IMG/VR virus record: IMGVR_UViG_3300008264_000017
Location: 1-29,239 of that record
From: a virus
Strand: one strand, 5' to 3'
DNA: 29,239 nt
Shown here: positions 3,580 to 28,358 of the stretch, one piece after another
Layout: each line of letters begins with the position of its first letter
How positions within the stretch are numbered: the stretch's first letter is position 1
Translations under genes and position numbers: made by a program
The notes under the pieces: model-generated
What the model was told of the DNA's origin: nothing
What the model saw: the letters and a program-made list of their open reading frames with translations, nothing else
The model's database searches: none

Positions 3580-3586
3580 ATATTTT

Positions 3587-3616: not shown

Positions 3617-3618
3617 GA

Positions 3619-3897: not shown

Positions 3898-3965
3898 AGT
3901 TATTTCGGTTACTTAGTAAGTTCATCCTGATTTACTTTAAACACACCGACATATCAATTATTTTT

Positions 3966-5359: not shown

Positions 5360-5383
5360 CACTTTACTTATCACTTTACTTAT
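5360..5383 (+). repeat. Tandem 12-bp direct repeat abutting the terminase start codon
   Basis: CACTTTACTTAT occurs twice in perfect tandem at 5360-5371 and 5372-5383. The terminase ATG (5382-5384) overlaps the last two bases of the second copy. The unit has no purine-rich SD. It may be a translation leader, a regulator site, or a slippage duplication. Confidence 0.8.
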
Positions 5384-8033: not shown

Positions 8034-9851
8034 ATGGGCACTAAGTACGACAAAAAGAAACAAATGGGTGAAGCCAAGAAGGCTGCTTTTAAAGCGGAGG
8101 AACTAGAGAGGGCTGGGGGTATCCCGATGACTGGATTGAATCCGCTCGGTATGCCTGAGTCCACTATTGGTATGTCTAAGAGTGAAAAGTTTTTTTCGGA
8201 AGGCAGAGCACTCGATAAAGTGCAACGGGAAGGCTACAAGACTTTCGGCGACAAGGCCACAGGTGAGCAGGAAAATAAACTGAGAGCGCTGCAAGGTCTC
8301 CCAGCGATATCGCACACACCTAAAGAGTTTACTGAGAACATCAACAAGTCCGTAGGTTTTGGTGGTAAGAGCGCACTGCTCGACCAAGAAGGTCGCGATA
8401 GAGCACTGAAGGGGGGCATCGGTGCTGGCCTAAGCTACGAGGAGGCTGATGCCGAAGTGACGAAAGCATATGATTTCCTGAAGAAAAAGTACGGTGGTAA
8501 GGATACACCAACTACACCAACCCCAACGCCTACAACAACCCCAACACCTACACCAACCCCAACACCGTCGCCGTCGGCACCTTCCTCGCCTACACTACCT
8601 CCTGAAGTGCCAGTAGAAAAAAACCCTATCGTGCAGTTTTTTGATGATGCTATGACGAGTGGTACCCCCGAGCGAGCCCTAATAAAAGGCGGATCTCTGA
8701 TCCTTAAAGGAACGGCGGAAGCCCGAGCCGCCAGAGCCGCTGCTGAAGCTGCTGCTGAAGCTGCCGCTAAAACCGCTGGCGCAGCAGGTGATGCTGCTAA
8801 ACCATTTAACATGGTAGATGACGCAGCCAAAACCGCAGATGAGGCACTCAAACAGAAATACAATTTTAGACCCGCTAGTGCTGTTGACGACGCCGCTAAA
8901 GCCGCCGCTAAAGTTGCTGGCGCAGTAGGTGATGCTGCTAAACCATTTAACATGGTAGATGATGCAGCCAAAGCCGCCGCCAAATACGCAGAAACTTCAA
9001 AGGCCGTGAATGCAACCCTTGACGCTGCTTCTGCGGCTGCTCAGAAAACTGGGATGCGTGTCTATAACGCTGCCCTACGGGCAGGACAATCTAAAGAAGC
9101 AGCGCTTGCCGCAGCTAATGCCGCTGAGAACGCTGCAATCCAAAGCGCATACAAAGACGTAATGGACAATTACGGTAAATCTTTCGACGCGGTAGATGAA
9201 GCCGCAGGTGCTACTGACGAAGCCGCAGGTGCTGCTGACGAAGCCGCTAGTGTTGCTGACGAAGCCGCTAGTGCTACTGACGAAGCCGCTGGCGCTGCTG
9301 ATGAAGCAGCCGCAGCCGCTGGAAAAGGAAAGGGCGCTATCGCTCGACTTGTCAACAAAGCCGCTAAATCAAGATTAGGGAGAATTGCACTTAAAGGTCT
9401 TAACGTTGGAGGTAAGGGGTTTAGGGTTTTTGGTAGAGCTGCTGGTCCGGTGCTAGAGATCTATGATGCGGCCAGATATTTTACGGGCGACCAAGAAGTG
9501 AAAGACCAGTATGCGAAGGACGTCGCGACCCTAGGACAACGAGTGTTCCAGCCCAAGTCCTTTGGCGAGTTCGCAGGAGGAGTCGGTGATGTATTAAGCC
9601 CGACTAAGAACGTACTCGGTACCGCTGAAGCAGTTAGACAGTTATTAAAAGCTCAGGAGGGCGCAAGAACCGCCGACGCTTCTCTTAAGTATGCGCAAAG
9701 TGTCATCAAGGCACAAAATGACAGACGGAAAGAGCTGTACCCTGACGAAGTTTTTGATAAACTACCGAAAGCACAACAAGTAAAAATCAAGCAAGCAATT
9801 AGGCAAGAGTTTAGCGACGCAGGTGTAAAGACATTCGGGCGATATCAATAA
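8034..9851 (+). CDS. Ala-rich repeat protein, probable structural or ejection protein, 605 residues
   Basis: I do not recognise a named family. The N-terminal ~155 residues are basic and mixed. Residues ~157-190 form a Thr-Pro linker (TPTPTP runs). Residues ~222-440 are a long Ala-rich helical region with two copies of a segment containing GDAAKPFNMVDDAAK, and then six tandem 7-residue units of the form DEAAxxx. The last ~160 residues (GRIALKGLNVGGKGFRVFGRAAG, YDAARYFTG) are more ordered and amphipathic, with a helical tail. The elongated, low-complexity architecture and its place right before the 4,289-residue gene suggest an internal virion or DNA-ejection protein (inference). Starts with an ATG 7 bases after the small upstream gene; no SD box is seen. 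A fibre or scaffold role is the main alternative. Confidence 0.7.
   Translation: MGTKYDKKKQMGEAKKAAFKAEELERAGGIPMTGLNPLGMPESTIGMSKSEKFFSEGRALDKVQREGYKTFGDKATGEQENKLRALQGLPAISHTPKEFTENINKSVGFGGKSALLDQEGRDRALKGGIGAGLSYEEADAEVTKAYDFLKKKYGGKDTPTTPTPTPTTTPTPTPTPTPSPSAPSSPTLPPEVPVEKNPIVQFFDDAMTSGTPERALIKGGSLILKGTAEARAARAAAEAAAEAAAKTAGAAGDAAKPFNMVDDAAKTADEALKQKYNFRPASAVDDAAKAAAKVAGAVGDAAKPFNMVDDAAKAAAKYAETSKAVNATLDAASAAAQKTGMRVYNAALRAGQSKEAALAAANAAENAAIQSAYKDVMDNYGKSFDAVDEAAGATDEAAGAADEAASVADEAASATDEAAGAADEAAAAAGKGKGAIARLVNKAAKSRLGRIALKGLNVGGKGFRVFGRAAGPVLEIYDAARYFTGDQEVKDQYAKDVATLGQRVFQPKSFGEFAGGVGDVLSPTKNVLGTAEAVRQLLKAQEGARTADASLKYAQSVIKAQNDRRKELYPDEVFDKLPKAQQVKIKQAIRQEFSDAGVKTFGRYQ
8775..8972 (+). 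repeat. 57-bp near-identical direct repeat pair inside the 605-residue gene
   Basis: Copy one is at 8775-8831 and copy two at 8916-8972; I count two mismatches in 57 bases. The offset is 141 bases, a multiple of three, so the frame and the encoded GDAAKPFNMVDDAAK segment are kept. The high DNA identity points to a recent in-frame duplication or ongoing gene conversion. Confidence 0.85.
9195..9320 (+). repeat. Six tandem 21-bp units encoding DEAAxxx heptads
   Basis: Six in-frame 21-base units (126 bases) encode DEAAGAT, DEAAGAA, DEAASVA, DEAASAT, DEAAGAA and DEAAAAA. Units differ mainly by synonymous or Gly/Ser/Val/Thr changes. A 7-residue period on a helix gives an acidic stripe and may form a coiled coil. 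Such arrays vary readily in copy number. Confidence 0.85.
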
Positions 9852-9857: not shown

Positions 9858-10616
9858 ATGGCTGATAACGAAAAAACCGAAGAGAAAAACTTCTCCTATG
9901 AGGGTGACATTCAACCTCTGATGAATAAGTATTTCAGTGTGGCTGCTAATAGTGGCTTGAGTGGTGACGATCAAATATCGTTCCTGCAAAAACAGCGTCG
10001 AAGACTTGAAGGACAATCTGAAAGGGCTATGGACCTTAAACTAAAAGAACTCGCTTTCGAGGACGCTAAGCTGAGGTTGGAGGAAAATAGGAGGAAGTCC
10101 ATTAGCTCACGCGAGAACATGACGGCACTCGCCGCACTACAACAGACGTTAGATTACGGTCTGACGGAGGTACCAGAACCCCAACGACCTAACTATTTCG
10201 CTAGAGTCGGGGTTGCCAACGGTGCACTTATTGGTTCGGATGAAACTGCTAAGGCCATGTGGAGCAGTGTGACCAAAGACCAATCTTCCAGTAGGAGCGA
10301 TCCTAGTGTGGATTACCGGAACAACATCCTTAAGGGGCTCGACAGCGTTAAATTCGGGGAGGATTATGCGGGTAAACCGACTAATAGTTTCGCTGACGTT
10401 GGAGAAAAAGCCAAAGTGGAGCGTGTTGTTACACTCGGTACGCCGGAAGAACAACTACAGGCAGCTGAAATGAGCGCCGATGAACTTTATGGTCTTGCTA
10501 AAAACATCAGAACACGATATGACGCAAGCGCATTAGGCGTAGGGAAAACAGCTACATCCAATACCAGATCTCTATTCTCAAGTAAAAAGGCTCCACCGCT
10601 GGTGACGCCACCTTAG
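9858..10616 (+). CDS. Hypothetical helical protein, probable virion-associated, 252 residues
   Basis: I do not recognise this protein. Residues ~40-105 are a highly charged helix likely to form a coiled coil (SFLQKQRRRLEGQSERAM, LRLEENRRKSISSREN). The middle (QRPNYFARVGVANGALIGSD) is mixed and the C-terminus is Ser/Pro-rich and probably disordered (SLFSSKKAPPLVTPP). It starts 6 bases after the 605-residue gene and ends 29 bases before the giant gene. This implies co-expression and possibly assembly with both. No enzymatic motif is visible. Confidence 0.7.
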   Translation: MADNEKTEEKNFSYEGDIQPLMNKYFSVAANSGLSGDDQISFLQKQRRRLEGQSERAMDLKLKELAFEDAKLRLEENRRKSISSRENMTALAALQQTLDYGLTEVPEPQRPNYFARVGVANGALIGSDETAKAMWSSVTKDQSSSRSDPSVDYRNNILKGLDSVKFGEDYAGKPTNSFADVGEKAKVERVVTLGTPEEQLQAAEMSADELYGLAKNIRTRYDASALGVGKTATSNTRSLFSSKKAPPLVTPP

Positions 10617-10645: not shown

Positions 10646-13600
10646 ATGCTGGAAATTAAACAATTCGACGACTGGCTCGCAAACCAAGAAGAGGCTGCCG
10701 AACCAACAACAAACCTTAAGAACTACACGGATTATGTTAGGTCTAGCTACTACAGCGCAGGACAACTAAACCAAGAGACTGAACAGGAGATCGCCGCCGG
10801 AGTTGCTGACCGTCTTAATAGTGATGGCTTGTTTACCGACGACATGTCCGAAGAGGACAAAAATAATTTATACTCTAGTGTTATTGGCGCGACGCGTAAT
10901 GCAGACACCGACGCTCGCTTTGTGTTGGACTACCTCCGCACGAATAGTGAAGGGCCAGCAAATGTCTTAGCAAACGAAGCTAAAGTCAGCAATCTTGCGA
11001 ACTACCTTACCCTACAAGAGAAATCCCCATCTGAAGCGGAGGGCTTTAAGCCATATGTCGATGAGATCCTTGCCGACAAGTCACTGATAAAACGTGCGCG
11101 TATGTCCGCTGTCGATCGCGGGGAATATAGCATCGCAGCACTCGACGAGGAAGACGGCACGCGCACCCTCTACGCTGGCCCAAATGCACGTCCTGAATCT
11201 ATTGCGGGTGAGGTCAAGTCACTTATTGCGACTGGTGCTCTGTCGTCCGCCGACCTATATCGGGTCAACGATTTCGTCAAACCATTAAACGGTGGTCTGA
11301 CCAATGGTGCTGAAGACTCCCGATATGAGACGTTCGCACGTACGATTAGTGATCTCGCAAAAAAAGATAAGGACTTAAATCAGTTAATCGAAAAAAATGC
11401 TTCCGATAAAATAGAGCAGAAGACAGCTGAACTCCGCACCACCGGAGAGAGTATATGGGGGGGAGTGAAGACGGTCATCAGTTACCCCTTTATCAAGGGA
11501 GGTGATCTTCTTCTTGACCTGTTTGACGGCGAACAGAAACAGCCGAAGTATGCGCCCGACACAAAGCTGTCTGACGCGGTCGCTGGTAATAGCGCGATCA
11601 ACCAACGCTTTAGCGCCGCTGAAATTGAAAAGTTCAGTGAGGCGCTTACGGACAGAGTTGCTGGAGCTCCTTATAGAGCCGACCGTCCTGAGACCGGAAT
11701 CACTACCGACTCGATGGGTAATGTTATTCTCGCCCCAAGCCTTTTAGCTAATGTAGAGCAGTTTAATCAAGCTGTCAGTAGCTCTTCGCTAAATAAAGAC
11801 CAGCAGAAACAAGCCTCTGTCCAACGTAAATTGTTATTGGAATCCGCTGCTCCTGACCTTATTCGGATGATCCTTGAAGAAGAACCTGAAGCGGTTAGCA
11901 GCTACGCAAAAGCAAAAGCCGATGGGCTCTCCCCTTCCGAGTTTGTCGAACAATATGTAGGTAATAATAAAAATTATGATGCGTTTGGTACTCGCTTAGA
12001 ACAGTTTGGAAAAAGCGCATGGAAAACTTTGGCTGAGATCCCTTTAGGTATTGCCGCCCTTGCTGGTAATGAGTGGGCTGCTACGACGATGGGCGACATG
12101 ATTAAAGACCAGACCAGACGTCAAGAGTTCTCCCGTCTCTACGGAGACGAGTATGGTTTGGGTTTCCAGATACTGAACACACTCCCACAGGTAGCTGCCG
12201 ACATCGGCCTAACTATTGGAACAGCTGGCGCGTTTGCTGGAGCCAAAGCACTTGCGAAAACAGGCGCGGCGTCGGCGCGTGCTATGATCCGGAATGGTGC
12301 CAAGATGGCACTCTCTGAGATTGATGATGCGGCAGCGGCTTCGTTCCGTAAAGCGGCGTCCGCTGAGGGCTCACAGTTTCTCGGTAAGGCTATCACAGAT
12401 GTTGGTAGGAGTTTTGGTAGCAAGTTCGGAGAGCTGGCTCCACTTGCCGCTGTCACGTTCACCCGATCAGCTGGCTCCTCATTCGGTTCCCTCTACAATC
12501 AGCTGCCGGACGACATGAGTCACGAGGAAAAATATAAGACCGCTCTTCCCGCTGCCCTTGCAATGGGCATCTCCACGTCTGTCATCACAGTGGGTCTGTC
12601 GGGATTGGGACTCGGTGCTGTTGAAGATATCGGCACAAACGTGGTTCGTAATAAAATTCTCGGTGGTGACACACTAACAACACGTGCTGCCCTTGAGGCT
12701 GCTGAGCGTGCTGTTCCAGTCAGTAAGATGAATTACCGACAAGCCAAACAGGCATACCAGAACGCAGCTAACGAAGGCCGCATCCTTAGCGACAAGGCGT
12801 TTAACGCCGCTGCCCGCGCAGCCGTCACCAGCACTTACAAAAACTGGTTGAAAACCACAATAAAGGGTGGACTTAGTGAGTCGTTTGAAGAGGCGCTAGA
12901 CCAAGGCGTCGGCATGGCTATTGAGAACGCTGCTCTCGATCGGGATGCTTCGCTTGCTGAGAAGGTTGCACAAGTGTTCGATGCAGGACTTATTGGTGGT
13001 GCTTTGGGTGCAGGTATTGCTGGTAGCACCCAGTTCGGCAGAGTTCGTAAATCAGAACAGAGTCTGGTGTTTGAGGGCAGAGCATCCGCATTTGAGGATA
13101 TCGCAAAGCGGCTCCGTAGTAACAATAGCAATTCTACCGCCGATGTATTGCAACGCCGTATCGACGAGGCGCGAGAGCAAGCACGACTCTCTGTCGAAAG
13201 AGATATCGCCGCGCAGAAAACTCAAGAGGAGGTCAAAGAACGCACTGTCGTTGCTGACCCCAACGAAAGACCCCTTAAAGGTAGACCTGTCTTTAACGAA
13301 GAGACAGGTCAGTGGGCACCCGCAGACGAGCCGTTCGACCCTCTGCTCGATGACATCCTAGGAGAGGAGATCGAATATAGTGGCTTTGAAGGCGTTCTGG
13401 AGCTAGACGCAGACGGCAGCTCTGTCGTCCTCCGACTCAATAAACCGTATACCACAGAGGGAGGCGGGTCAGTTGAGTTCATTAACTTGGGACCACGCTT
13501 CCAGAAAGCCTCAAAATTTACCGCCCCTCTCCTTACCATTGGGCAGGAGACTTTCGGCGTGCCCGCTGGCACCCCATACATATCAATGGGTGGTAAGAAG

Positions 13601-16600
13601 AAAACCAAATTTGCTTTTCCAGCAAAAGAGAAAGTGACCCCAGAGTCATTTGAAGTCTTTCGTGATGATGAAGGGAACGTGCGTAGCCTTATCGTTAAGG
13701 GTGGTCTCTCCCTTAAGGACGGGTCTACGACCATGAATATCCCCCTTACTAACTCTTTACAGATTAAAGCTATAGCAGAGTGGTACGGTATTGACATTAC
13801 GCCTAAACTGCCAGTGTCAGAAACCGCAGACGGTCAATTCGAGTTTGGGTTTGCTAACCGCAAGGATCTCGTCAAGTCGAAAGAAGAGTTCGGGTTCGTC
13901 GCCCCAGATGAACCAGAGATGACCGACGAAGAGCTAAAGGCAGAGACAGAGGACATCCTCGGTCGGTCATTCGCTCCTGTAATGGAGGGAGAGATGGAGC
14001 TCGTTACTGATAAACAGAACAGGACTAGAAGAATACTTGAGGGGTTCGACACTCAGATCTCCAGTAAGCAGAAGAACCTCAAGAAGGTTACCGATACCCT
14101 CGCGCCACTCAAAGATCTTAGTGACAAGCAGTTGACCGGAGACCAGAAGCTCATCAAACAACAGAGCATTGATCTTGAGAAAAAAATCAAAAAAGAAATT
14201 ACCGCACTTAGAAAAGCCAAGAAAGAGTTTAGTGAGGACGCGATCGAGCTCGGATCTTCGGCAACACAAGAACCACTAACTGCTACACCACAAGGCCCAC
14301 GCGTGTATCGGAGTTGGGATGAGTCACAGAAACAACTAGACCGCGATTTCGCTGAGTCCATCAATGGAATCAGGCAGAGTTATGTGGATACGGACGTGCC
14401 CGTTGATGTGGATCGTATTGAGAACATTATACGTATAGTACCACTCCGCAACAAGCTCGGCACATCTATTGCTCTCTCCGACGTCTCGATTGAAGAACTG
14501 GACGCCGTCGAATCAATGGCGGAGGACATTATTAGTTTTGCAGAGGACACCAATAATAAGGCTACGCCGAAGCAACGTCAACTAATCATTGATGACTACA
14601 GGGCTTTGGTTGCTCGGGTAAATATCATACAGCAGTACGCCGTTGAGCGTGAGTATGAAGAGGTTTTCGGTCTGGCGGTGTCGGAACTGAAAGCGTTACA
14701 GACGGAACCGGAACCCGAAGAAGAGGTCGAAACAAAAGCAAGCGACAATGACACGCTACACTACCTACTCTCCAATACACCTGAAGCGTTTACCACGATT
14801 GATGTAAAACCATTTGCTGACAAAAAGGTTTTAGGTACCCTGAAAAAAATGGGTGTTGAGATCGGCAAGCAACGCCAAGACAGTGTAGAAACGGTAACGG
14901 TTACAGGTTACGATCAAGAGACCAGAGAAATACTATACGAGAAGAGTGGCGTCACAGTGCGTGCTCCACTATCTACCGTCAACTTCGAGTCCCCTACTCT
15001 ACGCACCGCCATTGACGCCGCGAGCACAGAAGTTTTTGATATTACGCAACAAGCCAAAAAAGAAATGGCAGCGATTAAACGTAGAACGGCACGGCCAGTA
15101 CAAGACCGTGCGCGTGACTTCCTTATTAAGGTTAATGACTACGTCACTAAGAGCAAAGCATTAGACGAACGCCTTAAGGAAGTGGACAGAATGCCCGCAG
15201 CAAAGAGGTCCGCCGTCAAGCAACGCATCGAAGGGCAGCTGAAGGAGCTGAGAAAAAGTGCTACCAAATACGTCAACAGCGTTGGCTCTGTCCTACAGTC
15301 TGACTTTGATTTCTATAAAGACCTAGAGGAAGAACAAAAACAGGAAATAGCTGCCCAGATCCGCCGCTCGCTTTACGGTGTTGGGGGATTTAAACAAGAA
15401 GTGGCGCCTAGAGCTAGAGTCAAAGCCTTTAATCCAACGCCCGACATAAAAGTCACTAGGGTAGTATACGCCAAAGAGCAGTTCCGAAACGGCACGCAAG
15501 AGGAAGACATGCTTAATGAGCTAGTCGAAGGTGGTCACATCGTTAACCTGCCGGACACCGGAAAGGCCTTAGCCCAAGCTGGTCTTTTTATTACTGAGTC
15601 CGGTGTGAGTAAATTCCCAGCGTTCTCGCAATCTCAAGTTGAGTTAGTCGAGCAGGAAGGCCAAGAGGTAGCTGACACTAACGCTTACATCAAGGACAAG
15701 CACGAACTCCTTAGCGAAAAAGTCCTGTCTAAATACCCACAACTCGGCGAGCTGGTTACCATTACAGGTAGATCCAGAACCAAAGGAACCATTGGTGATG
15801 ATACCGCTATGCTCGACTCTATTGAGGTAGAGATCAATCGAATGAATAGCGCTATTGAGAAAGATGCGCTACTCGGCAGAAAAGTACCTTCCGAGTTCAT
15901 CAAGAAACGCGACGGGTTGGTGCAGCAATTAAAAGAAGCTAAGGTCAGAATAAAGGACGAAAGATATTACGAAATTGACGGAAAGAAATACGAAGTCGTT
16001 AATAGTAAAACGGACAGGAGTATTTACTTTCCGGTGGATAAAGACGGCCTGTTTGGTGTGTTCACAAACAACCCTAAGATCACAAGAGCGCAGATTGCGG
16101 CGGGTTATCGTGTGGTCATACCTGATAAGTTCGATAGAGATCTGTTTAACCCATCGCAGTATACACGGGACGGGCGTATTATCGAAGGATACTATATGCC
16201 CCGCAATCCAGAACCATCTACCGTAGGTAGTTTCGGTCGCGTATCGAACCCGAGGATTGATGAGAACGGCGAGCAGATACTCGACGAGAGATCGAACTTT
16301 GATAGCACACGCATTGAGTTGTTTGTGAATAACATGGTGAGTACGTCTGAGATTCAAGGGAATATGGGGGCTTACTTCGCCACCTCATTAAGAGAACTCA
16401 ATAAAATTACCCGCAACCTCCTCGCGTCGAAAAGAAATAGTGATTCAAGATTCCCTTGGTCAGAGACTTACATCGACAACACGGTATCAGACCTTACCCG
16501 AGGGTTTGCTGCCGAGTTAAATGAATACCGCTTGGCTCAAAACGTAGTACGGAGAGCCTTTCAGTCTTTGGAATTTCAAGATACGATTAAGATCGGGAAA

Positions 16601-19600
16601 GAGTTAGTAACTAGATATATTGACGAAGAGGGCAACACGATAGAGTTTTCTGATCTCCCACAGGAAATCAGAGATGAAAGTATTGTGGATAAACTCAAGA
16701 AAACGGATCTTGTTAAGTTCGTAACTGAGATGATCCCAGATCGTGATGTTAATTCGATAGCTGCCGACATCAAAAAGATATACAAGAACATCAAGGGCGA
16801 AGATTCTAATTCGGTTATTATCCAATACGCCAAATTGCTTTATGCTAACGCCACTGTTGCAGGTGGTAGGTTCTACTCACTACCAGATCCGAATACGTAT
16901 TTAAATCGTCCAGCTAATCTGACAGTTGTGGGGACCTCGGTCTTTAACACAGTAGCAAATAGGAATGCAAAAGCTGAACGAGCTAACCCCAACACCGAAT
17001 ATGTACCCTTAGATTACGTTACGCGAGATGGAGATGGGTTCTTCTTAGAGGAGATAATCGGAGCAGCGGGCGCGGACACAATCCAAGCGCTGCAAGATGA
17101 GATGGATCGGCGGAGACAGGAGAGCGGAGCAGATGCGGGAGTATATGATATGCTACTCACGGGTGAGTCGTATGCCAGCGCACTGGAATCGTCTGACCTT
17201 GTCTTTATGAACCGTTCAGCTTTGTTGGCGAGCGAACTATACCGCACTATCGCAGAGGACAAGACTGGCAAACTAGCCCAAGTCTTCAGGGATCTCGCGG
17301 TGCAGACCGGAGTAATCCCACAATATCAGGCAGACAACTTGTCTGATGCTGTGCTCGTCCAATCACTATCCGGCAGACTTAACACTGATTACGTCCTCCA
17401 CGCCAATAAAGGGTACGCTCGCACTGTGCTATCCACATTGTCCGGAACGGATTTAGGTAAGCAGGCCGCTGGTATTCTAATCGCCCTTAGATGGCTACCA
17501 CCTACAATGTCGCTTCCGTTGCGAGCACCAGCTGAACGGAAATCTGCAACACCTGCGGCGACAGCAACCACGCCACCGGATGAAGCCATCGCGGCAGGTA
17601 AAGCCTTACGCCAAGCAGAAGCAACAGATAGTGACACGATTGATTATGCCAGAAATTACCTAGAGGCATCTCAGGCAGCACTACCGTATCTGTTAAAGCT
17701 CGGCAGTGAGCGAAGGATAGCCCTCAACACAATCGAAGAAGCTCGCGCAGACATTTACGATTCGTTCCGTTTGCTGCGGACGCTTATTGGTCAGACAGAC
17801 CCCGAAGACATAGGACCTGTCCAGACGAAAACCAAAAGGCAGATCGCCGAAGGTATTGAGATCGGTCGCGTCGGAGTTACAACCGAAAGCGTTGCTGCGT
17901 TCCAAGACAAAAATGTTAGTGGTATCGAAGCAGAAATCCAGAAACTACAGGATACACGCAAGAGAACTGAAGATCTTATAAATGGAATAGGCTCTGTTCG
18001 GGCGAGGATTCTGGAGATCACTGATGGTCTCGTTTTACGAGACGAGGCGAGCAAAGCCATTGAGGTGATACCAGCTCTACTAAAACAGGCAAAGTCTAAT
18101 AAGGAAAGGACCGCGCTTAAAGCAGAACTGGCGGAGCTACAAAAGACTTACGAAGATATCTTCTATAGAGGCGACGAGACTCTCGCTGACTTGGATGCTT
18201 CGATAGTCACTAAACAAAAACAACTTGAAAAGGCTAAGGCTGTAAGAGAACTAAGTGGACCTACTCTAGTCAACAACCTAATTGAGAACATCGAAGCGGC
18301 CTACGCCCAAATAAATAACAATCGCGAGTTCTTGTCTGAGCTCTCTGAATCCGCTAGAGCTCGTATCCAAAGCGAAAGCCAACGGATTGAGCGCCTCCGT
18401 AAACTACCAGAGTGGCAACAATACGTTGAGATCATTGCTGGTTCGCCTACTATTTTACGCGGTAGAAAAGACATAGATGAGAAAGTGAGGCGTAAGATTG
18501 ATGAGATTGAGAGTGACGCGACAAAACGTAAGACATTTGACGATGCCGTAAAGGCACGGGCAAAAGCACTCGATCAAGCGCTGATTAAAAACGGCTTCAA
18601 CCTACCGAAGGCTGGTCTCATTACCCCATACGTTGATCCGATGGACTTCGTCGTTAGCAAGCCCCGATTCGAACCTTCTGAAGGTCAGACTACAGACCCG
18701 AATGTTCGTGGAGTTGGTCGCCCAAGTGGCAAAGTAGTCGCAACATTTAGCGAGCAGAATCTCTCAGCCGCTGAGCGCCAGCAGTCCACAGCGAAATCAT
18801 TCTCCGAAGTAGTTGCACCGATAGTACGCTCAGGTGAACGCTTTAGACCCGCTCTACCACCCCTCCCAACCAAAGAGGTCGGCGGCAGAATCAAAGTACT
18901 CAGCAAGCCGAAAGAATACGATCCGAACGACAAGTTCTTCTCGCTGTCTCAGATCGACCCATCCCTCCGCGACGAAGCAAGGGTAGAGAACCTGCGCGTA
19001 GCTGGACAACTCGGTCTCGTATCCGGTGACCCGAACTCTGTTCTCGGAGCCCTCCGTAGAATCACGCAGACTGGCACACCGAGGCAACAACTGATTGCCG
19101 AACTGCTGCTGACTGCGCCGGACTTCATTAGGGACATCAACTTCGTTATGGTCGAAGTAGACTTGGGCTTTGCTGGTCTTTATGACAAGACGAGCAACTC
19201 AGTCTTAGTTAACCTAAACGAACACAACGGTCGTGGTTTAGTGGACGTGCTCCTGCACGAATACCTCCACGCACCGACAGCTAAGGTTCTACTTAACCCT
19301 AAGACTGAGTCCCAACGGAAGGCAGTGGCACGTATCGAAGCGATTCGTAACTTCGCCATCGCTAATGCGGCTAAACTCGGACTGGACACAGATCCAGTTG
19401 TAAGGCTCGGCTTGTCCAACAACGCTGAGTTCTTGACCTACGCCCTTACTGCACCGGAATTCCAGAACATCCTTGCTGGTCTTGCACCGCTTGACCAACG
19501 CTCGATCCTGCGCCGTCTCGTTGACGCTATCCTTAACGTCTTTGGTCTTGATCCTAAGAAGCACGAGGTTGCCGCTGATGCGATCCAAGAACTACTCGAC

Positions 19601-22600
19601 TTCACCAAGATGTCCCTCGCCCATGCAGGTACGTTCAGCGTCGATAACAAATGGAGAGCGTTGGTTGGAACTGCTCGCAGCAAGAACGAACGCGCACAGG
19701 CTTACTCCAACCTTACCGCTGCTAATTTAATCAACGATGTGATTAGCCGCTACAACGAAGACGGGATACTAACCGACGAGGGCGGCGTCAATTACATCCG
19801 TGTCCCCGAACTCGAAGGCGACACAGCAATCGACGTGCTCGGTGAGATCCGACGCATCGCACCTGAAGGTATCAACATCGAGATCAACAACACTATGGTT
19901 GGTGCGATGGGCGCTAACCCAACCAAGCCTAACACAATACTCGTCAACGAGAATTTGGTAGCGACAATGGCAGCTGGTCTGTCGGCAGCTAATGCTAGGG
20001 CGGTAGTGCGCACGGCAGTGGACGAAGAGCTCGCCCACCTTGCATCATTCGCCGTATTCAAAACCGAAGACTTCGCCGCTATCGCAGCGGAGATCGGTCC
20101 TGATAGAGTGAACGAGATCCTCGACATGATCTACTCTAGCGCAGTTCCTGACGCCACTGAACGTGCGGCTCGCATTGCTGCTGATCGTGAGGCAGGCGTG
20201 ACAGGAGACGTTGACGCTGCTGCTGAGTGGGTGCGTATGGAGATCACTCGTTTGGCTACTGGCCGCACGAGGGAAGCTGACATCGCGTTCTTCTACACGA
20301 ACCCGTCACTGCTTGAGCGATTCCTCGAAGGACTCAGAGCGTTTATCAACAAACTCAAACAACAATTTAAGTCTGAGCCTACTGCTGGTACTGCCGCTCG
20401 CATCTCGCAAGCATCCCGTTCGTTCCGTAAACTACGTAACGGCGGCGCACTACCTACGCCGGAGCCGTCCGCAGCTAATGAGTACGGCGACTCCACCGCC
20501 TTCATCAACGCCATCAACGGCGACATCGCTGAAGGACAGGAAGACCGCACATACTTCATGCTCCCTGTATCCGGTACCGGTAACAGTAAGGCTGCCGTAA
20601 GCGGATTCTGGAAGACGGTACAGGATAAGATGTACAACCTGCCAATGGAGCTCCGGAAGTATTTGAGTCTGAGAGATGGCACTATCTCACAAGTTGAGTA
20701 TACGATTCAGGACTTCGACCGCCGCTTTCCGAAGATGCGTGACGAGGCTCTTGCTAGGGGCGCGAGCATCGAGGACATCGGCATGATCCTCGGAACTACT
20801 GCTCCGGTTGTACAAGGTGAAGCACGCAAAGAAATCCAAAGGAAGGTTCGCGAGTTCAAGACGAATAACGCAACTGATCCAGATCTTGAGCGTAAGGCCG
20901 ACGACTACGAGGCTAAGTTGACACAGCCAGAAGCTGACAAGTTCTTTGCGGCGTTCCGTAAACAACAGAAGGCAATGGAGGATAAACTCAAGAGCGCTGG
21001 CTTTGGAGACCTCGTTGACTACCTCGTTGAGTTCAGGGGCGAGATCAATAAATACAAGGCGGTCATCAACTTCGACGAGTCCAACGACGTATACCTCACT
21101 AGAACATTCAGGTTCTTCGGATCGGAAGGTTGGGCCAGCTTCGCTAAGACGGGCGGTGTTGCAATGCTCGACGGCAAAGAGGTAGACTTCAACAAGCTCC
21201 GTGCCGCTGCCGCTAAACACTTTGAGTGGGAGGTAAACAACGAGGCGAAGCAGACTGGTCAAACCTTTACTGCGGAACAACACGATAAGAAACTGGTTGA
21301 GTATCTCGATAAGTATCTTGAGAACCTCGAACTCCAAGCCGCCGACGCCAAAGAGTTAGGTGCAATGAACACTATCCGCAAGGATGTGAACCGCCTACTA
21401 AACAAGAAGGACTTCGACGAACCTTTGCGTATGTTGTTGGGCGAAGTCACTGACCCGTTTGAGAACGCAGTCCGCACCGTGTATAACGTCGGCAGGTTCG
21501 CAGCCAACGAGAGATTCCTACGCGACTTCGCAAGTCAGGCAATCGCAATCGGAGTAGCCAGCCGGACACGCAAGCCGGACATGGAGCTCCTCTTCCCACC
21601 GACTCAATCGGCACAGCTCGGAGACCTTGCTGGCTTGTATGTGAGGAATGACATTGCCGCTACCATCCGCGAGGAGTTAGGCATGAACGGAATGAAGCAA
21701 CAGTCCAAGGCGATGGAGCAAATCAATATGTTCGGTCGCTTCATAGCTAAGTTCTCCGGTCTTTCGATCACCGCAAAGACATTGGGCTCCGTTGGTTTCT
21801 ATCCTCGTAACGTATTGGGCGGCATTGCCCTGACTACATCACAAGGCATCGTTAATCCGGTCTACCTGAAGGAGGCGTTTCGCCTGTCGATCATCGCTAA
21901 CATGTCCCTCAACGGTAGGATTAAGGCGGAGTCGGAGGAGTCCCGTAATCTGATGCGTAGACTTGTTGAATTGCAGGTGCTGAAGGATGATACTCAGGGT
22001 CGTATCGCAATGGACATGCTTAACGGCTTTGTCAACTCTACGGATCAGCAACTCGAAGAGCTGCTTAACGATATCGTCGAGGCACAAGGCAGTGGCAACA
22101 TCGAGAAGATCATCAAGAAGTTCAAACTCAAAGGGACATGGGAAGCCACGAAACAAGCTGGCGGTTCTACTGTTGAGTTCCTTGCATCACTCAACAACGT
22201 AATCGACAGCGCGTTTAAACTTAACGCCTACTTCCACGAGTTGAGTGTGCTGAAGGAAGCCTACGGTGACACGGAATCCGAAGCCAAACTAGAAGTGGAC
22301 GCCGCACGCAAAGTTAAGCTGACGTTCCCAACGCACTCGGATCAACTCAGTCTTGCGAAGGCGTTTAACAAATCGCCGTTCTCGATGGTCGCCCTTCCGT
22401 TCGTCCGGTGGAAGACCGAGGTGTTCCGCACGATGTTCAACACCGTCCCGCTTGCTGTTGAAGAAATCAAATCAGGCAACCCGACCATGCGTAGTCGCGG
22501 CATCAAACGCCTGATTGGTTTCGTCACCACTATGACAGGCGGCGGTGCTGCCTACGGTGCAATATTCGCCACACTGTTTAGTCTCCTGACTGATGACGAA

Positions 22601-23515
22601 GAAGACGAGCGCGATGGCGTGCGTAAGCTCACCGACGAAGAGCTCGACGCGCTTCGTCAAGGTCTACCGAAATGGCAGCGCAACCACGGTATCTTCGCAC
22701 AGATGCTGCAAGACGGTAGCGTACAGGTCATCGACATGTCCAACATCCTACCACATAGCCAGCTTACTGACTTAGTTGGTCTGGCCTCTCGTGGTAACCT
22801 CAAGGGTATGGCCGACTACATCACCTCCGAGATGATTGGAACTCAGATCGCTGCCAGCACTGTGTTCGAACTCGCACAGAACCGCGATGACTTTGACCAA
22901 CCTATCTGGTTGGACACTGACGGCGCGGTCGGTGCCTTCGGTAAGTCTCTAGTGCATTTGGCTAAGGGTACGGTAGTGCCGTCCGCAGTTGACAAAGTGA
23001 TGAAGATTGGTAGATACGGCGAGCAAAACGCCAAGGAGATGATCGTCGGTGAGCTCACAGGTGTGAGACCGATAATCCACAAGGTAACCGATATCGAGTA
23101 CCGTGGCATGCGGAACTTGAAAGAGTCGGCTGATGCCGTGGTGTCACTCCTCTATCCGTTGTCTTCTGGCAAAGCTCTCGATCCGAGTAAGGTCGAGGGG
23201 GTTATGGAAGAACACCAATCGGCGTCCAACAAGAACCAACAGAAGCTGCACGACTTCCTCATGGGCATGCAGTCCATTGGTTCTACGGAGGCGTCGCTCG
23301 CGGCTACTGCACAACAGATGAAGTTCAGTAAGCAACGCTTCGGTGCTGCCCTTGCAGGAGAGAACATCCCTTGGGGGCCGAACGAACAGTGGTTCCGTAA
23401 GATGTATGATAACAAGGTACGGGTCGGTGAACAGAACCCTGATGAGATCGCCAGCGAAATCAACAGGGTCATGTCTAAGAAAGCCGATGGCTACAACACT
23501 AATTTCCTTGAGTAA
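10646..23515 (+). CDS. Giant 4,289-residue polyvalent protein with zincin-like domains; probable internal virion/ejection protein
   Basis: One uninterrupted frame of 12,870 bases. Seen in order: an acidic helical N-terminus; hydrophobic, Gly/Ala-rich segments at ~505-540, ~635-680 and ~781-795, the last after GLSESFEEALDQGVG; a beta-rich part at ~910-1060; charged coiled coils at ~1130-1200 and ~2420-2650; a Thr/Pro/Ala linker near 2300; a zincin domain with HEYLH at H2871-H2875 and a likely third ligand E2928 (NNAEFLT); a second zincin-like region where the site reads EELAH (E3127-H3131), hence without the first His; and a C-terminal ~1,000 residues with YLTRTFRFF, YPRNVLGG and a hydrophobic stretch at ~3958-3981. 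The C-terminal pattern resembles the LPD38-type regions of phage 'polyvalent' proteins. Those proteins are thought to enter the cell with the DNA. The leader has no SD box. No RNA polymerase motifs were seen, so an N4-type virion polymerase is unlikely. Confidence 0.85.
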   Translation: MLEIKQFDDWLANQEEAAEPTTNLKNYTDYVRSSYYSAGQLNQETEQEIAAGVADRLNSDGLFTDDMSEEDKNNLYSSVIGATRNADTDARFVLDYLRTNSEGPANVLANEAKVSNLANYLTLQEKSPSEAEGFKPYVDEILADKSLIKRARMSAVDRGEYSIAALDEEDGTRTLYAGPNARPESIAGEVKSLIATGALSSADLYRVNDFVKPLNGGLTNGAEDSRYETFARTISDLAKKDKDLNQLIEKNASDKIEQKTAELRTTGESIWGGVKTVISYPFIKGGDLLLDLFDGEQKQPKYAPDTKLSDAVAGNSAINQRFSAAEIEKFSEALTDRVAGAPYRADRPETGITTDSMGNVILAPSLLANVEQFNQAVSSSSLNKDQQKQASVQRKLLLESAAPDLIRMILEEEPEAVSSYAKAKADGLSPSEFVEQYVGNNKNYDAFGTRLEQFGKSAWKTLAEIPLGIAALAGNEWAATTMGDMIKDQTRRQEFSRLYGDEYGLGFQILNTLPQVAADIGLTIGTAGAFAGAKALAKTGAASARAMIRNGAKMALSEIDDAAAASFRKAASAEGSQFLGKAITDVGRSFGSKFGELAPLAAVTFTRSAGSSFGSLYNQLPDDMSHEEKYKTALPAALAMGISTSVITVGLSGLGLGAVEDIGTNVVRNKILGGDTLTTRAALEAAERAVPVSKMNYRQAKQAYQNAANEGRILSDKAFNAAARAAVTSTYKNWLKTTIKGGLSESFEEALDQGVGMAIENAALDRDASLAEKVAQVFDAGLIGGALGAGIAGSTQFGRVRKSEQSLVFEGRASAFEDIAKRLRSNNSNSTADVLQRRIDEAREQARLSVERDIAAQKTQEEVKERTVVADPNERPLKGRPVFNEETGQWAPADEPFDPLLDDILGEEIEYSGFEGVLELDADGSSVVLRLNKPYTTEGGGSVEFINLGPRFQKASKFTAPLLTIGQETFGVPAGTPYISMGGKKKTKFAFPAKEKVTPESFEVFRDDEGNVRSLIVKGGLSLKDGSTTMNIPLTNSLQIKAIAEWYGIDITPKLPVSETADGQFEFGFANRKDLVKSKEEFGFVAPDEPEMTDEELKAETEDILGRSFAPVMEGEMELVTDKQNRTRRILEGFDTQISSKQKNLKKVTDTLAPLKDLSDKQLTGDQKLIKQQSIDLEKKIKKEITALRKAKKEFSEDAIELGSSATQEPLTATPQGPRVYRSWDESQKQLDRDFAESINGIRQSYVDTDVPVDVDRIENIIRIVPLRNKLGTSIALSDVSIEELDAVESMAEDIISFAEDTNNKATPKQRQLIIDDYRALVARVNIIQQYAVEREYEEVFGLAVSELKALQTEPEPEEEVETKASDNDTLHYLLSNTPEAFTTIDVKPFADKKVLGTLKKMGVEIGKQRQDSVETVTVTGYDQETREILYEKSGVTVRAPLSTVNFESPTLRTAIDAASTEVFDITQQAKKEMAAIKRRTARPVQDRARDFLIKVNDYVTKSKALDERLKEVDRMPAAKRSAVKQRIEGQLKELRKSATKYVNSVGSVLQSDFDFYKDLEEEQKQEIAAQIRRSLYGVGGFKQEVAPRARVKAFNPTPDIKVTRVVYAKEQFRNGTQEEDMLNELVEGGHIVNLPDTGKALAQAGLFITESGVSKFPAFSQSQVELVEQEGQEVADTNAYIKDKHELLSEKVLSKYPQLGELVTITGRSRTKGTIGDDTAMLDSIEVEINRMNSAIEKDALLGRKVPSEFIKKRDGLVQQLKEAKVRIKDERYYEIDGKKYEVVNSKTDRSIYFPVDKDGLFGVFTNNPKITRAQIAAGYRVVIPDKFDRDLFNPSQYTRDGRIIEGYYMPRNPEPSTVGSFGRVSNPRIDENGEQILDERSNFDSTRIELFVNNMVSTSEIQGNMGAYFATSLRELNKITRNLLASKRNSDSRFPWSETYIDNTVSDLTRGFAAELNEYRLAQNVVRRAFQSLEFQDTIKIGKELVTRYIDEEGNTIEFSDLPQEIRDESIVDKLKKTDLVKFVTEMIPDRDVNSIAADIKKIYKNIKGEDSNSVIIQYAKLLYANATVAGGRFYSLPDPNTYLNRPANLTVVGTSVFNTVANRNAKAERANPNTEYVPLDYVTRDGDGFFLEEIIGAAGADTIQALQDEMDRRRQESGADAGVYDMLLTGESYASALESSDLVFMNRSALLASELYRTIAEDKTGKLAQVFRDLAVQTGVIPQYQADNLSDAVLVQSLSGRLNTDYVLHANKGYARTVLSTLSGTDLGKQAAGILIALRWLPPTMSLPLRAPAERKSATPAATATTPPDEAIAAGKALRQAEATDSDTIDYARNYLEASQAALPYLLKLGSERRIALNTIEEARADIYDSFRLLRTLIGQTDPEDIGPVQTKTKRQIAEGIEIGRVGVTTESVAAFQDKNVSGIEAEIQKLQDTRKRTEDLINGIGSVRARILEITDGLVLRDEASKAIEVIPALLKQAKSNKERTALKAELAELQKTYEDIFYRGDETLADLDASIVTKQKQLEKAKAVRELSGPTLVNNLIENIEAAYAQINNNREFLSELSESARARIQSESQRIERLRKLPEWQQYVEIIAGSPTILRGRKDIDEKVRRKIDEIESDATKRKTFDDAVKARAKALDQALIKNGFNLPKAGLITPYVDPMDFVVSKPRFEPSEGQTTDPNVRGVGRPSGKVVATFSEQNLSAAERQQSTAKSFSEVVAPIVRSGERFRPALPPLPTKEVGGRIKVLSKPKEYDPNDKFFSLSQIDPSLRDEARVENLRVAGQLGLVSGDPNSVLGALRRITQTGTPRQQLIAELLLTAPDFIRDINFVMVEVDLGFAGLYDKTSNSVLVNLNEHNGRGLVDVLLHEYLHAPTAKVLLNPKTESQRKAVARIEAIRNFAIANAAKLGLDTDPVVRLGLSNNAEFLTYALTAPEFQNILAGLAPLDQRSILRRLVDAILNVFGLDPKKHEVAADAIQELLDFTKMSLAHAGTFSVDNKWRALVGTARSKNERAQAYSNLTAANLINDVISRYNEDGILTDEGGVNYIRVPELEGDTAIDVLGEIRRIAPEGINIEINNTMVGAMGANPTKPNTILVNENLVATMAAGLSAANARAVVRTAVDEELAHLASFAVFKTEDFAAIAAEIGPDRVNEILDMIYSSAVPDATERAARIAADREAGVTGDVDAAAEWVRMEITRLATGRTREADIAFFYTNPSLLERFLEGLRAFINKLKQQFKSEPTAGTAARISQASRSFRKLRNGGALPTPEPSAANEYGDSTAFINAINGDIAEGQEDRTYFMLPVSGTGNSKAAVSGFWKTVQDKMYNLPMELRKYLSLRDGTISQVEYTIQDFDRRFPKMRDEALARGASIEDIGMILGTTAPVVQGEARKEIQRKVREFKTNNATDPDLERKADDYEAKLTQPEADKFFAAFRKQQKAMEDKLKSAGFGDLVDYLVEFRGEINKYKAVINFDESNDVYLTRTFRFFGSEGWASFAKTGGVAMLDGKEVDFNKLRAAAAKHFEWEVNNEAKQTGQTFTAEQHDKKLVEYLDKYLENLELQAADAKELGAMNTIRKDVNRLLNKKDFDEPLRMLLGEVTDPFENAVRTVYNVGRFAANERFLRDFASQAIAIGVASRTRKPDMELLFPPTQSAQLGDLAGLYVRNDIAATIREELGMNGMKQQSKAMEQINMFGRFIAKFSGLSITAKTLGSVGFYPRNVLGGIALTTSQGIVNPVYLKEAFRLSIIANMSLNGRIKAESEESRNLMRRLVELQVLKDDTQGRIAMDMLNGFVNSTDQQLEELLNDIVEAQGSGNIEKIIKKFKLKGTWEATKQAGGSTVEFLASLNNVIDSAFKLNAYFHELSVLKEAYGDTESEAKLEVDAARKVKLTFPTHSDQLSLAKAFNKSPFSMVALPFVRWKTEVFRTMFNTVPLAVEEIKSGNPTMRSRGIKRLIGFVTTMTGGGAAYGAIFATLFSLLTDDEEDERDGVRKLTDEELDALRQGLPKWQRNHGIFAQMLQDGSVQVIDMSNILPHSQLTDLVGLASRGNLKGMADYITSEMIGTQIAASTVFELAQNRDDFDQPIWLDTDGAVGAFGKSLVHLAKGTVVPSAVDKVMKIGRYGEQNAKEMIVGELTGVRPIIHKVTDIEYRGMRNLKESADAVVSLLYPLSSGKALDPSKVEGVMEEHQSASNKNQQKLHDFLMGMQSIGSTEASLAATAQQMKFSKQRFGAALAGENIPWGPNEQWFRKMYDNKVRVGEQNPDEIASEINRVMSKKADGYNTNFLE

Positions 23516-24915: not shown

Positions 24916-26328
24916 TTATACATCAGTGATCTCGATAACCTCTCCTGCTTTAAATGCGTTGGTAGCAGCGCCAGTTGACAGCCAGAGCAAAGGAAAGTCC
25001 ACGTAGGTGATCTCGCTGAGGTCACTGGAGTAGCCGTCAGTCAGGTAGACCATGACATCCACATCCTGTACGTGCTCCGCCACCCAGTCGAAGGCTGGCT
25101 TGAACTTCGTACCGCCACCGCCCTTCAGCGAGGCTGGCACGGTGTCGCCTGCTTCAAGGGACACGGCATCGGCAACCACATGGGAGACGGATAGTAGGTG
25201 AACCCTCTCCGGCTTGAGGTCGTCGAGTACCGATTGCGCTTCACTGAGGAAGCGGTCATAGGTGCGCTGTCCGATCGAACCAGAGGTGTCGAGCACGAGC
25301 ACGATCTCTCCGGCATTGCGGGTGCGACGTCCAGCTGCAACGAGTCCAGTCGTCTGGAAGATCGCGTTGTTGAACGGCGAGTCCCATCCATTGCGTGATC
25401 TCTTAGACAACCATTCGCGTAGTAGATCAGGCCAGCTCAACGAGGAGCTGGTGCGCTGTCCTTGTAGGCGGCTGGCAGTTGTGCCGCTGTCGCTCTGCTG
25501 ACGTCGATCTATTTCATCGGCGATGAAGATCGAGTCGTTCGCTTCTTCGAGTCGGTCGATGGTTTGCTGTTGCGACTCTCCGTCTTCTGGTTCCGGCTCG
25601 AACGTATCCGGTGCGCCAGTGCCGACAAAGTCTGAGAGATCATCTCCGCTATCGCTGACATCAGAATCGGTATCACTACCACCACTACCAGAAGCATCGT
25701 CACCATCATCGTCTTGGCTGCTGTCTTGATCGTCGCTCTCCCCCTCTTGAGGAGTCTCGCCGTCGTCCGACGTATCATCATCGGCATCATCACCATCATC
25801 GGCATCATCGTTAGTATCATTGTCTTGTTGTGGTTTGGGGGTGGTCTGGTCTTGTTGTATTGGTTTACTAAGTATTCTGTATAGCTGCTCGGCTGAGTTG
25901 TTACCGGACAGCTCCTCGTCAAGCAGCACGCCACCAATGAAGGGGAATACCTCCTTGCCTATCTCACGATTGCGGTTGGCGATCATCGCGTTGATGACGT
26001 AGTCCGCTGCGATGTTTGCAGTTGTGTGGTTGCCTAACTTGGCGAGCCGCCAGCCGTGACCGAGCAGGGCATGCAACGCCTCATGCACTAGCAGGAATGC
26101 GATGAGTCCTGCCCCGTTGGGTTGGCGGGATAGCTTGTCGATGCCGTTGCGATTGAGGAGTAGCGTCGAGCCGTCCGTTGCACCGTAAGGCACAGCGTCC
26201 GACCACTGCCACTTCATGGACATCAGCTTGCTGTGGGTGAGGAACCAATACCTACTCGTTGTCCGCATGGCTACGGACAGAGGGTGGTTGGTGTCGAACT
26301 GTGTGGGGTCTATTGTATTTGTTGTCAT
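24916..26328 (-). CDS. Metallopeptidase-like/VWA fusion protein (DUF2201-like, CobT-like)
   Basis: A 470-residue protein in three parts. The N-terminal part (1-155) has HEALH at 82-86 followed by NIAADYVIN (D109), the pattern of the DUF2201 metallopeptidase-like domain. A linker at about 160-245 is almost only Asp, Ser, Glu and Gly. The C-terminal VWA domain (about 340-470) has a complete metal-ion-dependent adhesion site: DTSGS (D347, S349, S351), T407 in GGGGT and D431 in YLTDG. VWA proteins of this kind bind MoxR-type AAA+ ATPases and pass on their remodelling force; the ATPase lies two genes upstream. CobT-like annotation is common for such genes, but no chelatase large subunit is present. 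The leader is A/C-rich without SD. Confidence 0.85.
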   Translation of the reverse strand: MTTNTIDPTQFDTNHPLSVAMRTTSRYWFLTHSKLMSMKWQWSDAVPYGATDGSTLLLNRNGIDKLSRQPNGAGLIAFLLVHEALHALLGHGWRLAKLGNHTTANIAADYVINAMIANRNREIGKEVFPFIGGVLLDEELSGNNSAEQLYRILSKPIQQDQTTPKPQQDNDTNDDADDGDDADDDTSDDGETPQEGESDDQDSSQDDDGDDASGSGGSDTDSDVSDSGDDLSDFVGTGAPDTFEPEPEDGESQQQTIDRLEEANDSIFIADEIDRRQQSDSGTTASRLQGQRTSSSLSWPDLLREWLSKRSRNGWDSPFNNAIFQTTGLVAAGRRTRNAGEIVLVLDTSGSIGQRTYDRFLSEAQSVLDDLKPERVHLLSVSHVVADAVSLEAGDTVPASLKGGGGTKFKPAFDWVAEHVQDVDVMVYLTDGYSSDLSEITYVDFPLLWLSTGAATNAFKAGEVIEITDV

Positions 26329-27266: not shown

Positions 27267-28358
27267 TTACGCGAGAATGAGGTCACGGCTTTTCGGATGC
27301 TCGTCGAGCGGGATGCCACGACGGGTGGCGGAGCGGGCACCGAACTCACGGATGTCGCCACGGCAACGCAGCAGGAGGGACACGAGCCAGTCGAACCCGC
27401 CACTGTGCACGGCGATGGCGATGTCCTTAACCCCACGGGTAGCGGTGGCAAGGCAAGCTGAGACAAGGGCGAACTGCACCGCAGGATCTTCCGGCACGAC
27501 GAAGTTATCAGGGTCAGCCTTGAGGGTGGCGATGTCCGGCAGCTTGTCCACATGCTGGAGGAAGGCGAAGTAGGTGCTGGCTGCACGATCCCCGACACTA
27601 CCGCGAACGAACTTGCGGAACGCTTCTGGCTTGGTATCACGGAACGGATGTGCCAACGCCACTGCTTCCCATGTGCGGGGGCACGGATGGGGCACGCCGT
27701 CATAGGGCATGGTAACCGGAGGGTTGAAGTGATCGAGCCCGTCACCGCTTGTTGTGCCGAAGCGCAGGAACGCTGGCACATGAGACCCGCTCGACGCTAG
27801 TCTCGGCTGGCTGTCAAACCAGTCAAGCCAGTCAGCGACATTAGGCTCAAGTGTTACCTTGACGCAACGCTCGGTGAACGGGGCGTCTTCCACAGCGGAG
27901 CGCGTGCCGTCCTGTCTGCGGTTAGAAGCACAGACCACGAAGACATTCGAGCCTAGCTTATGCGGGCCAACCTTCCGGTCACCGGATGCAGGGTACAGGG
28001 AACGGAGGAGGGCACGGACAGCAGGATCGTAGTCGTTGCACTCGTCGAGGAAGAGGAGTGTTGGCTCGTCGCCGACTCGTGCTTGAGTTGGCCAGATGTC
28101 AGGAGCATAGAACGACATGTCGTCGCCGTTGGGTTTGCCGTAGCCAATCACCTCTTGAGGGCCTTGCCCGTTGAGGTTGACCTCCCACACCTTGCGACCC
28201 ATCTGCGGGGCGAGGACTTTGGTGACGATGCTGGTCTTGCCAGCGCCACCACTACCTACGATGAAGAGGAAGCGGTCGGTCGTGACCACCATCTCCGCGA
28301 GGTCGAGGAGTTCGGAAGGCTTGACAGGGTTGATGGAGTTACTTGTGTTGGTTGTCAT
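27267..28358 (-). CDS. MoxR-type AAA+ ATPase (CobS-like)
   Basis: A 363-residue AAA+ ATPase. Walker A is GSGGAGKT (35-42), Walker B is LLFLDE (101-106), sensor 1 is N146 in VCASN, and an arginine finger candidate is R164 in FTERC. The order NRRQDGT...FTERC mirrors the MoxR element NP..eGT..L...DRF. MoxR ATPases work as hexamers that remodel partner proteins, often with a VWA protein; one is encoded two genes downstream. A sigma70-like promoter candidate precedes it. The first codons (ATG ACA ACC AAC ACA) resemble those of the VWA gene, both giving MTTNT. The C-terminal ~150 residues are helical and should form the lid. It is likely the first gene of the module's transcript. Confidence 0.9.
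   Translation of the reverse strand: MTTNTSNSINPVKPSELLDLAEMVVTTDRFLFIVGSGGAGKTSIVTKVLAPQMGRKVWEVNLNGQGPQEVIGYGKPNGDDMSFYAPDIWPTQARVGDEPTLLFLDECNDYDPAVRALLRSLYPASGDRKVGPHKLGSNVFVVCASNRRQDGTRSAVEDAPFTERCVKVTLEPNVADWLDWFDSQPRLASSGSHVPAFLRFGTTSGDGLDHFNPPVTMPYDGVPHPCPRTWEAVALAHPFRDTKPEAFRKFVRGSVGDRAASTYFAFLQHVDKLPDIATLKADPDNFVVPEDPAVQFALVSACLATATRGVKDIAIAVHSGGFDWLVSLLLRCRGDIREFGARSATRRGIPLDEHPKSRDLILA

Follow-up and report, generated by a model that had tools for sequence, protein, structure and literature searches.

A cysteine-free phage protein of 4289 residues is probably a polyvalent ejection protein

What kind of protein does a phage encode in a single gene of 12.9 kb? The question is raised by a virus record of IMG/VR, linear and 29,239 bases long, the whole of which was analysed and is called the window here. 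Its plus strand carries, at positions 10646–23515, an open reading frame (ORF) of 4289 amino acids with an ATG start, the stop codon being included in these coordinates. The product has a mass of about 474 kDa and contains 22 tryptophans and no cysteine. The original prediction described it as one phage gene of mosaic, polyvalent architecture, and the reading proposed here is that this giant is probably a polyvalent ejection protein.

The gene is intact and conserved. A stop-free frame of this length has a chance probability of about 4e-90 under a 61/64 model, and the prediction of one uninterrupted gene is borne out by an identical 4289-residue protein from another metagenome (L002). A further contig (L003) contains residues 1–3774 with three differences before the contig ends, a 60,223-base contig from a third metagenome (L005) encodes an orthologue of 4532 residues that is 88% identical to the window giant, and a partial relative (L006) shows 84–86% identity. 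The 58,991-base contig L004 is identical to the window giant across the first 3000 residues and then has an 83-base deletion near residue 3041, which splits the gene into ORFs of 3045 and 1206 amino acids; the deletion may be a real polymorphism or an assembly slip. Its site coincides with the position at which L005 has an ART-PolyVal domain. The giant is larger than T7 gp16 (1318 aa) and, as had been pointed out, than N4 gp50 (3500 aa), but it is not singular in this respect, and complete members of its clade range from 3504 to 4532 residues.

How is such a protein built? The N module (residues 1–850; 10646–13195) is rich in glycine and alanine, is described by profile A7 and includes, at residues 633–659, the single clear hydrophobic stretch by the Kyte-Doolittle scale, where several insertion-like segments had been expected. 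It is followed by a small clade-restricted domain (851–1060; 13196–13825; profile A9), a charged variable segment (1061–1580; 13826–15385), one or more clade-restricted middle domains (1581–2300; 15386–17545) and a second variable segment (2301–2775; 17546–18970), which is just 56–58 residues long in L027, L028, L030, and L032; both variable segments were delimited in the clade alignment. Beyond these lie zincin 1 (2776–3000; 18971–19645), a domain slot (3001–3068; 19646–19849), the zincin-like region 2 (3069–3239; 19850–20362) and a mostly helical C module (3240–4289; 20363–23512; profile A5), all on the plus strand. The clade alignment comprises eleven members of 3494 (cut short) to 4532 residues. 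Conservation is seen up to about residue 1050 and again over residues 2776–4289, and the stretch between these two parts is poorly conserved and variable in length. Ten members (the truncated L027 was omitted) share 304 invariant columns, 20 of which fall between residues 1051 and 2775. Along the clade giants, the N profile comes first, followed by those of the small domain, the middle, the zincin, and the C module. Between the window and L005, dN/dS is 0.16 overall, with segment values from 0.09 to 0.27. The lowest values belong to zincin 1, zincin 2, and the C module (0.09 to 0.10) and to the small domain (0.10); the N module has 0.13, the middle 0.18, the first linker 0.19, and the second linker 0.27.

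What do residues 850–2700 contain? The claim that this region matches nothing nameable stands, with no Pfam match over cut-off, PHROGs matches at E 0.2 or above, and PDB sequence matches at E 0.067 or above. The full giant likewise has no Pfam match over cut-off (best DUF1409, E 0.017), its best PHROGs match is phrog_36560 at E 0.2, and residues 1–2700 have no tblastn match in 50,697 phage records. PDB profile searches returned unrelated entries, the best E-values being 0.0073 for the C module, 0.043 for the N module, and 0.067 for the middle, and a PDB sequence search with the small domain returned no match. An AlphaFold2 model of residues 1581–2300 (pLDDT 64.1, pTM 0.38) gave no significant match in fold searches, the VIA matches mostly covering one helical hairpin. 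As residues 850–2700 are under purifying selection yet kept only inside the clade, the new effector domains originally proposed for them are no more than possible. The domain exchange that can be demonstrated lies elsewhere, in the slot at about residues 3001–3068.

The modules differ in their distribution. With the N-module profile A7, 54 loci were found in IMG/VR, and 35 of them were examined. Because the ORFs were selected by that profile, all 35 match it; a C-profile match is also present in 21, and each of the other 14 is still open where its locus ends. When only the complete ORFs of this set are considered, the C module is present in 10/10 and the zincin profile in 3/10. A search of IMG/VR with the C module found 95 relatives, 80 of which were kept, and the 47 loci examined among them gave 42 complete ORFs of 1286 to 4229 residues and five open at the 5' end. 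Among 44 far C-module ORFs outside the clade, the N profile matches two and the zincin profile four. These matches in N- and C-found ORFs give the C module a wide distribution and the N module a narrower one, and the zincin is patchy outside the clade. A search with a closer C-module set (A11) also returned 12 loci in contigs of bacterial genomes, including Pseudomonas, Azoarcus, and Marinomonas. ART-PolyVal (6 of 16), LPD5 (four), and LPD1 (four) are carried by relatives with the same C module, and further cargo in C-module relatives includes LPD3, LPD23, MuF_C, InPase, methyltransferase, and GGDEF domains.

Two zincin-like regions had been predicted, and the first of them is well founded. 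Zincin 1 has the motif HEYLH at residues 2871–2875 and an invariant glutamate, E2928, and both the HExxH motif and the glutamate are kept in 11/11 aligned clade members. The second region is degenerate: the window has DEELAH at residues 3126–3131 and has lost the first histidine, which is replaced in six members, while the HExxH motif is intact in 4/11 (L027, L028, L030, and L032). Matches to SprT-like metallopeptidases occur below cut-off in L028, L030, and L032. The place of zincin-like 2 is taken in L041 by an ART-PolyVal domain (E 4.3e-20).

The slot between the two regions is where close relatives diverge. In 8/11 clade members, the gap between the zincin parts is 52–86 residues long (68 in the window). 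In L005, the gap is 319 residues long and contains an ART-PolyVal domain (PF18760, E 1.4e-14), a domain that Pfam does not find in the window giant at E-values up to 1. The same site thus has an enzyme domain in one orthologue and is empty in another that is 88% identical. The slot was surveyed in six loci chosen for long inserts or a displaced zincin: inserts without a Pfam name occur in L030 (gap 214) and L027 (gap 445, residues about 2237–2680), and ART matches below cut-off in L137 (E 0.0036) and L130 (E 0.058). The pair formed by the window and L005 would allow the gain or loss of an injected enzyme to be studied in near-matched proteins.

Is there a link to proteins that are known to be ejected? 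At the sequence level, the giant is related to solved ejection proteins in the zincin region only. Among PDB sequences, the zincin profile matches 9sfn_G, an internal virion protein (E 6.3e-6), for which a literature search found no paper, and 8vb2_A, the tetrameric ejection protein gp48 of the Pectobacterium phage PhiM1 (E 1.2e-5). The motifs HEAVHA and HEAAHA of 9sfn_G and 8vb2_A align under HEYLHA of the window. In the paper on PhiM1, gp48 belongs to a three-protein ejectosome, and its residues 268–528, which cover the zincin-matched stretch, are called endolysin/exotransglycosidase-like and not a peptidase (PMC11440229). The zincin reading of this stretch disagrees with that label. The zincin profile does not match T7 gp16.

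The C module was modelled with AlphaFold2 (pLDDT 71.2, pTM 0.65). The first VIA match of the model is the T7 core protein 9jyy_I (Z 8.0, rmsd 8.4, 250 aligned residues) and the third is 8vb2_A (Z 7.0, rmsd 6.4, 247 aligned), with alignments that run from model residue 90 to residue 580 or 563; Z scores of 7–8 lie within the range of unrelated helical models and alone do not prove a shared fold. In the second match and nearly all the others, the alignment is short and helical and covers 47 to 95 residues. In PhiM1 gp48, the zincin-aligned stretch (382–499) precedes the helical part that aligns to the C-module model (558–915), which is the order found in the window giant. Foldseek found nothing in the PDB at E 0.001 or better, and a chain of the cyanophage A4 pre-ejectosome appears at rank 33 (E 2.6). 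Against the viral predicted structures of BFVD, 44 matches reach 0.001; the first is from Cellulophaga phage phi19:3, and 13 of the 44 are named large polyvalent protein associated domain proteins. At the sequence level, profile A5 could not be linked to T7 gp16, N4 gp50, or P22 gp16.

The original prediction also called the C-terminus LPD38-like, which is right as a remote relation. A profile of 69 LPD38 sequences (from 80 viral relatives collected) aligns in hhalign with the C-module profile A5 at a probability of 90.3 (E 1.5e-6), the segment being residues 3867–4093 inside the C module (22244–22924, plus strand), whereas five profiles of other regions (A2, A6, A7, A8, and A9, two of them from the N module) reach at most 0.6. 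The probability is 81.5 with A11, which shares members with A5, and a smaller LPD38 profile of three sequences reaches 67.6 with the C module. The Pfam model LPD38 (PF18857) is silent: it is over cut-off in 0/5 clade records and in 0/6 genomes with C-module relatives, where the controls were silent too, and it is absent from the families found at E 0.01 in sets of 16 and 17 far relatives. As a positive control, it matches in 3/185 genomes.

Which genes accompany the giant? The gene for the terminase large subunit (TerL) lies upstream at 5382–7187 (PHROG 2, E 1.7e-14), followed by a gene for a 605-residue Pro/Ala-rich protein (8034–9851) and one for a 252-residue protein directly upstream of the giant (9858–10616). 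All are on the plus strand, and the two small proteins, both free of cysteine, are probable co-ejected partners. In all 9 of the 13 loci that reach TerL, two or three small genes separate TerL from the giant, all on the same strand, with TerL identities of 60–85%, and TerL is upstream of the giant in 5/5 close relatives. The giant thus lies among late or virion genes in a recurrent arrangement. The window TerL has no tblastn match at E 1e-5 in the 50,697 phage records and relatives of 60–100% identity in IMG/VR; as judged by this gene, its lineage appears to have no close isolate in that collection. The 605-residue gene contains tandem repeats at 8512–8566, 8735–8768, and 9198–9307 (rich in Pro/Thr and Ala/Asp/Glu), and its counterpart is 558 residues long in L005 and 537 in L006. 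Also near the giant, and conserved in relatives, are minus-strand genes for a VWA-like/DUF2201 protein (24916–26328) and an AAA ATPase (27267–28358), a pair that resembles those of the MoxR-VWA type.

How might such a protein work? As a polyvalent ejection protein, the giant would be made late and packed into the virion head together with the two small cysteine-free proteins encoded directly upstream, and at infection the three would pass out through the tail ahead of the DNA. The C module, joined in its own lineage by the N module, may act as a chassis, one that is stowed in the virion, drawn through the tail, and reassembled to span the envelope, where the C module would form a hub-like part of the passage like the hub of T7 gp16 or PhiM1 gp48. 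The zincin, if active, could either open the cell wall or cleave the chain once it has entered. The middle and the slot would carry lineage-specific cargo, such as the ADP-ribosyltransferase of some relatives. A relative that points to the virion is gp123 of Cellulophaga phage phi18:3, the residues 953–1917 of which match the C module and the record of which annotates it as a virion protein from MS/MS. The chassis is not universal, with the N module and the zincin missing from most far C-module ORFs.

An alternative is that the giant is a head-packaged effector carrier like the Dar proteins of phage P1, which would be injected but play no part in a channel, its constant parts serving as packaging or entry signals. 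The polyvalent cargo of relatives with the same C module would suit such a carrier, as would a structural link to T7 gp16 that reaches a Z of 8 only. This explanation is nevertheless unlikely: the zincin matches two core or ejection proteins in sequence, and the same gene set recurs after TerL.

The chances are slimmer still that the giant is a tail tape-measure protein with enzymatic inserts. It is very long, it belongs to a late module, its C module is rich in helices, and some of the BFVD matches are in records named Myoviridae. However, C-module homologues are found in phi18:3, a podovirus (Pachyviridae in its record), and in Y3, which its paper names vB_PunP_Y3 and which that name marks as a podovirus. 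Complete C-module ORFs range from 1286 to 4532 residues, and the zincin match is to ejection proteins of the podophage type.

Could the middle instead be a diverged polymerase, the giant being a virion RNA polymerase like that of N4? N4 gp50 is also giant and free of cysteine, and it has one HExxH motif (HELVH at 2228); the zincin aligns weakly with it in hhalign (P 10.4, E 0.003), and in tblastn the zincin matches Vibrio phage phi 1 records annotated as virion RNA polymerase (E 4e-4). But conservation is lowest in the middle, much of which is absent from L028, L030, and L032, no polymerase match was found in Pfam, PHROGs, or PDB sequences, profile A6 reaches a probability of 0.3 against N4 gp50, and the pattern R-x3-K-x6/7-Y-G of polymerase motif B is absent from the giant, so that a polymerase is highly improbable. 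An assembly fusion of several genes, to which the split in L004 and the separate 1027-residue C-module gene of Y3 might point, has almost no probability, because the frame is open in the window and in the independent contigs L002, L003, L005, and L006, L004 alone being split, and the ORFs of relatives are long as well.

Another feature that bears on a polyvalent ejection protein is its composition. With the average cysteine content of window ORFs of at least 100 residues (1.2%, overlaps removed), 52 cysteines would be expected in the giant. With a structural baseline from G004 (19 in 4385 residues of eight chosen structural ORFs, other ORFs of that module being left out), about 18 would be expected, and the log10 probability of finding none is about -8.0. 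The eleven clade members together have one cysteine in 43,868 residues. All 90 ORFs of the set, the window, duplicates, and truncated ORFs included, have 12 in 242,202, and the 56 that are non-redundant after dereplication at 70% have 10 in 160,481. The 27 genes between TerL and the giant in 13 loci, again with the window, encode none in 9,869 residues.

Is this pattern shared by known ejection proteins? Cysteine is absent from T7 gp15 and gp16, from N4 gp50, gp51, and gp52, and from P22 gp7, gp20, and gp16. The exceptions in T7 are gp14, with one cysteine, and gp13 (labelled internal virion protein in its record), with three in 138 residues. Both Y3 proteins, phi18:3 gp120, gp121, and gp123, and HTVC027P gp85 are free of cysteine too. 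Other virion proteins mostly contain cysteine: five in T7 gp12 and three in the T7 portal, 11 in N4 gp65 and two in the N4 portal, and eight in the P22 spike and four in the P22 portal. On its own, the absence of cysteine is neither specific nor strict, and in a short protein it says little, because the N4 MCP (401 aa), N4 gp57 (405 aa), and the product of the window VWA gene lack it as well. In two papers, virion RNA polymerases of the N4 type are described as cysteine-free, and passage through the tail or periplasm is suggested as the reason (PMC3715699, PMC3915230); no statement of a general rule of cysteine exclusion for ejection proteins was found in the open-licence literature, and the single place where the paper on phage SU10 mentions cysteine concerns a mass-spectrometry setting.

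The near-total lack of cysteine fits passage through the cell envelope. It is tentatively suggested, with chances somewhat short of even, that cysteine exclusion is a mark, readable from sequence, of large proteins on the ejection route, their cargo included. If so, all 4289 residues of the giant, the unnamed middle among them, would cross the envelope, and next to the zincin there would be an exchangeable slot for effectors. Raw genomes could then be searched for injected proteins without recourse to homology, and the cysteine pattern would be a cheap and testable predictor of injected phage proteins.

How does the giant compare with known systems? Like PhiM1 gp48 and T7 gp16, it belongs to an adjacent set of genes, here for probable ejection proteins, but it is much longer than gp48 (1263 aa) and gp16 and has an N module, a middle, and a domain slot in addition. 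T7 gp16 shares its freedom from cysteine but matches neither the C module in sequence nor the zincin profile. N4 gp50 resembles the giant in size, in the absence of cysteine and in its HExxH motif, and its layout of an N part, a centre and an encapsidation part (PMC5512222) is also that of the giant. They differ in that no polymerase was found in the window giant, the middle of which is hypervariable.

A comparison with the Pseudoalteromonas phage Y3 suggests a re-reading of one of its genes. Its genes for proteins of 3421 and 1027 residues lie at 819–14193 of L020. Like the giant, the 1027-residue protein is free of cysteine and has a C module (its residues 150–1023, profile positions 60–943), here behind an ART domain. 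Unlike in the giant, the C module is in a gene of its own, and the C-terminal end of the preceding 3421-residue protein is a second copy of the first part of the module (residues 3247–3412, profile 60–210, E 5.7e-45). The larger protein also matches ddrB-ParB, LPD1, LPD5, ART, and methyltransferase domains. In the paper on this phage, the 1027-residue gene is printed as an auxiliary ADP-ribosyltransferase gene (PMC11654794); it would instead be read as encoding a C module of the ejection type, preceded by an ART.

The polyvalent proteins of the LPD38 group (Iyer et al. 2017, PMC5512222) resemble the giant in having a zincin, here a zincin-like metallopeptidase with HExxH and E2928, in the LPD38-like end, in a late-gene neighbourhood and in the ART-PolyVal domain of close relatives. 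They differ from the window giant, which has no domain above the Pfam cut-off and is mostly unnamed; zincin 1 is the only enzymatic domain that it shows, to which the L005 orthologue adds ART-PolyVal. As a polyvalent ejection protein, the giant would join in one chain the polyvalent proteins, known from sequence, and the ejectosome proteins, known from structure. Outside the viral records, an LPD38 match was also seen in a bacterial genome (L181), in an open frame of 4954 residues that exceeds every protein studied here.
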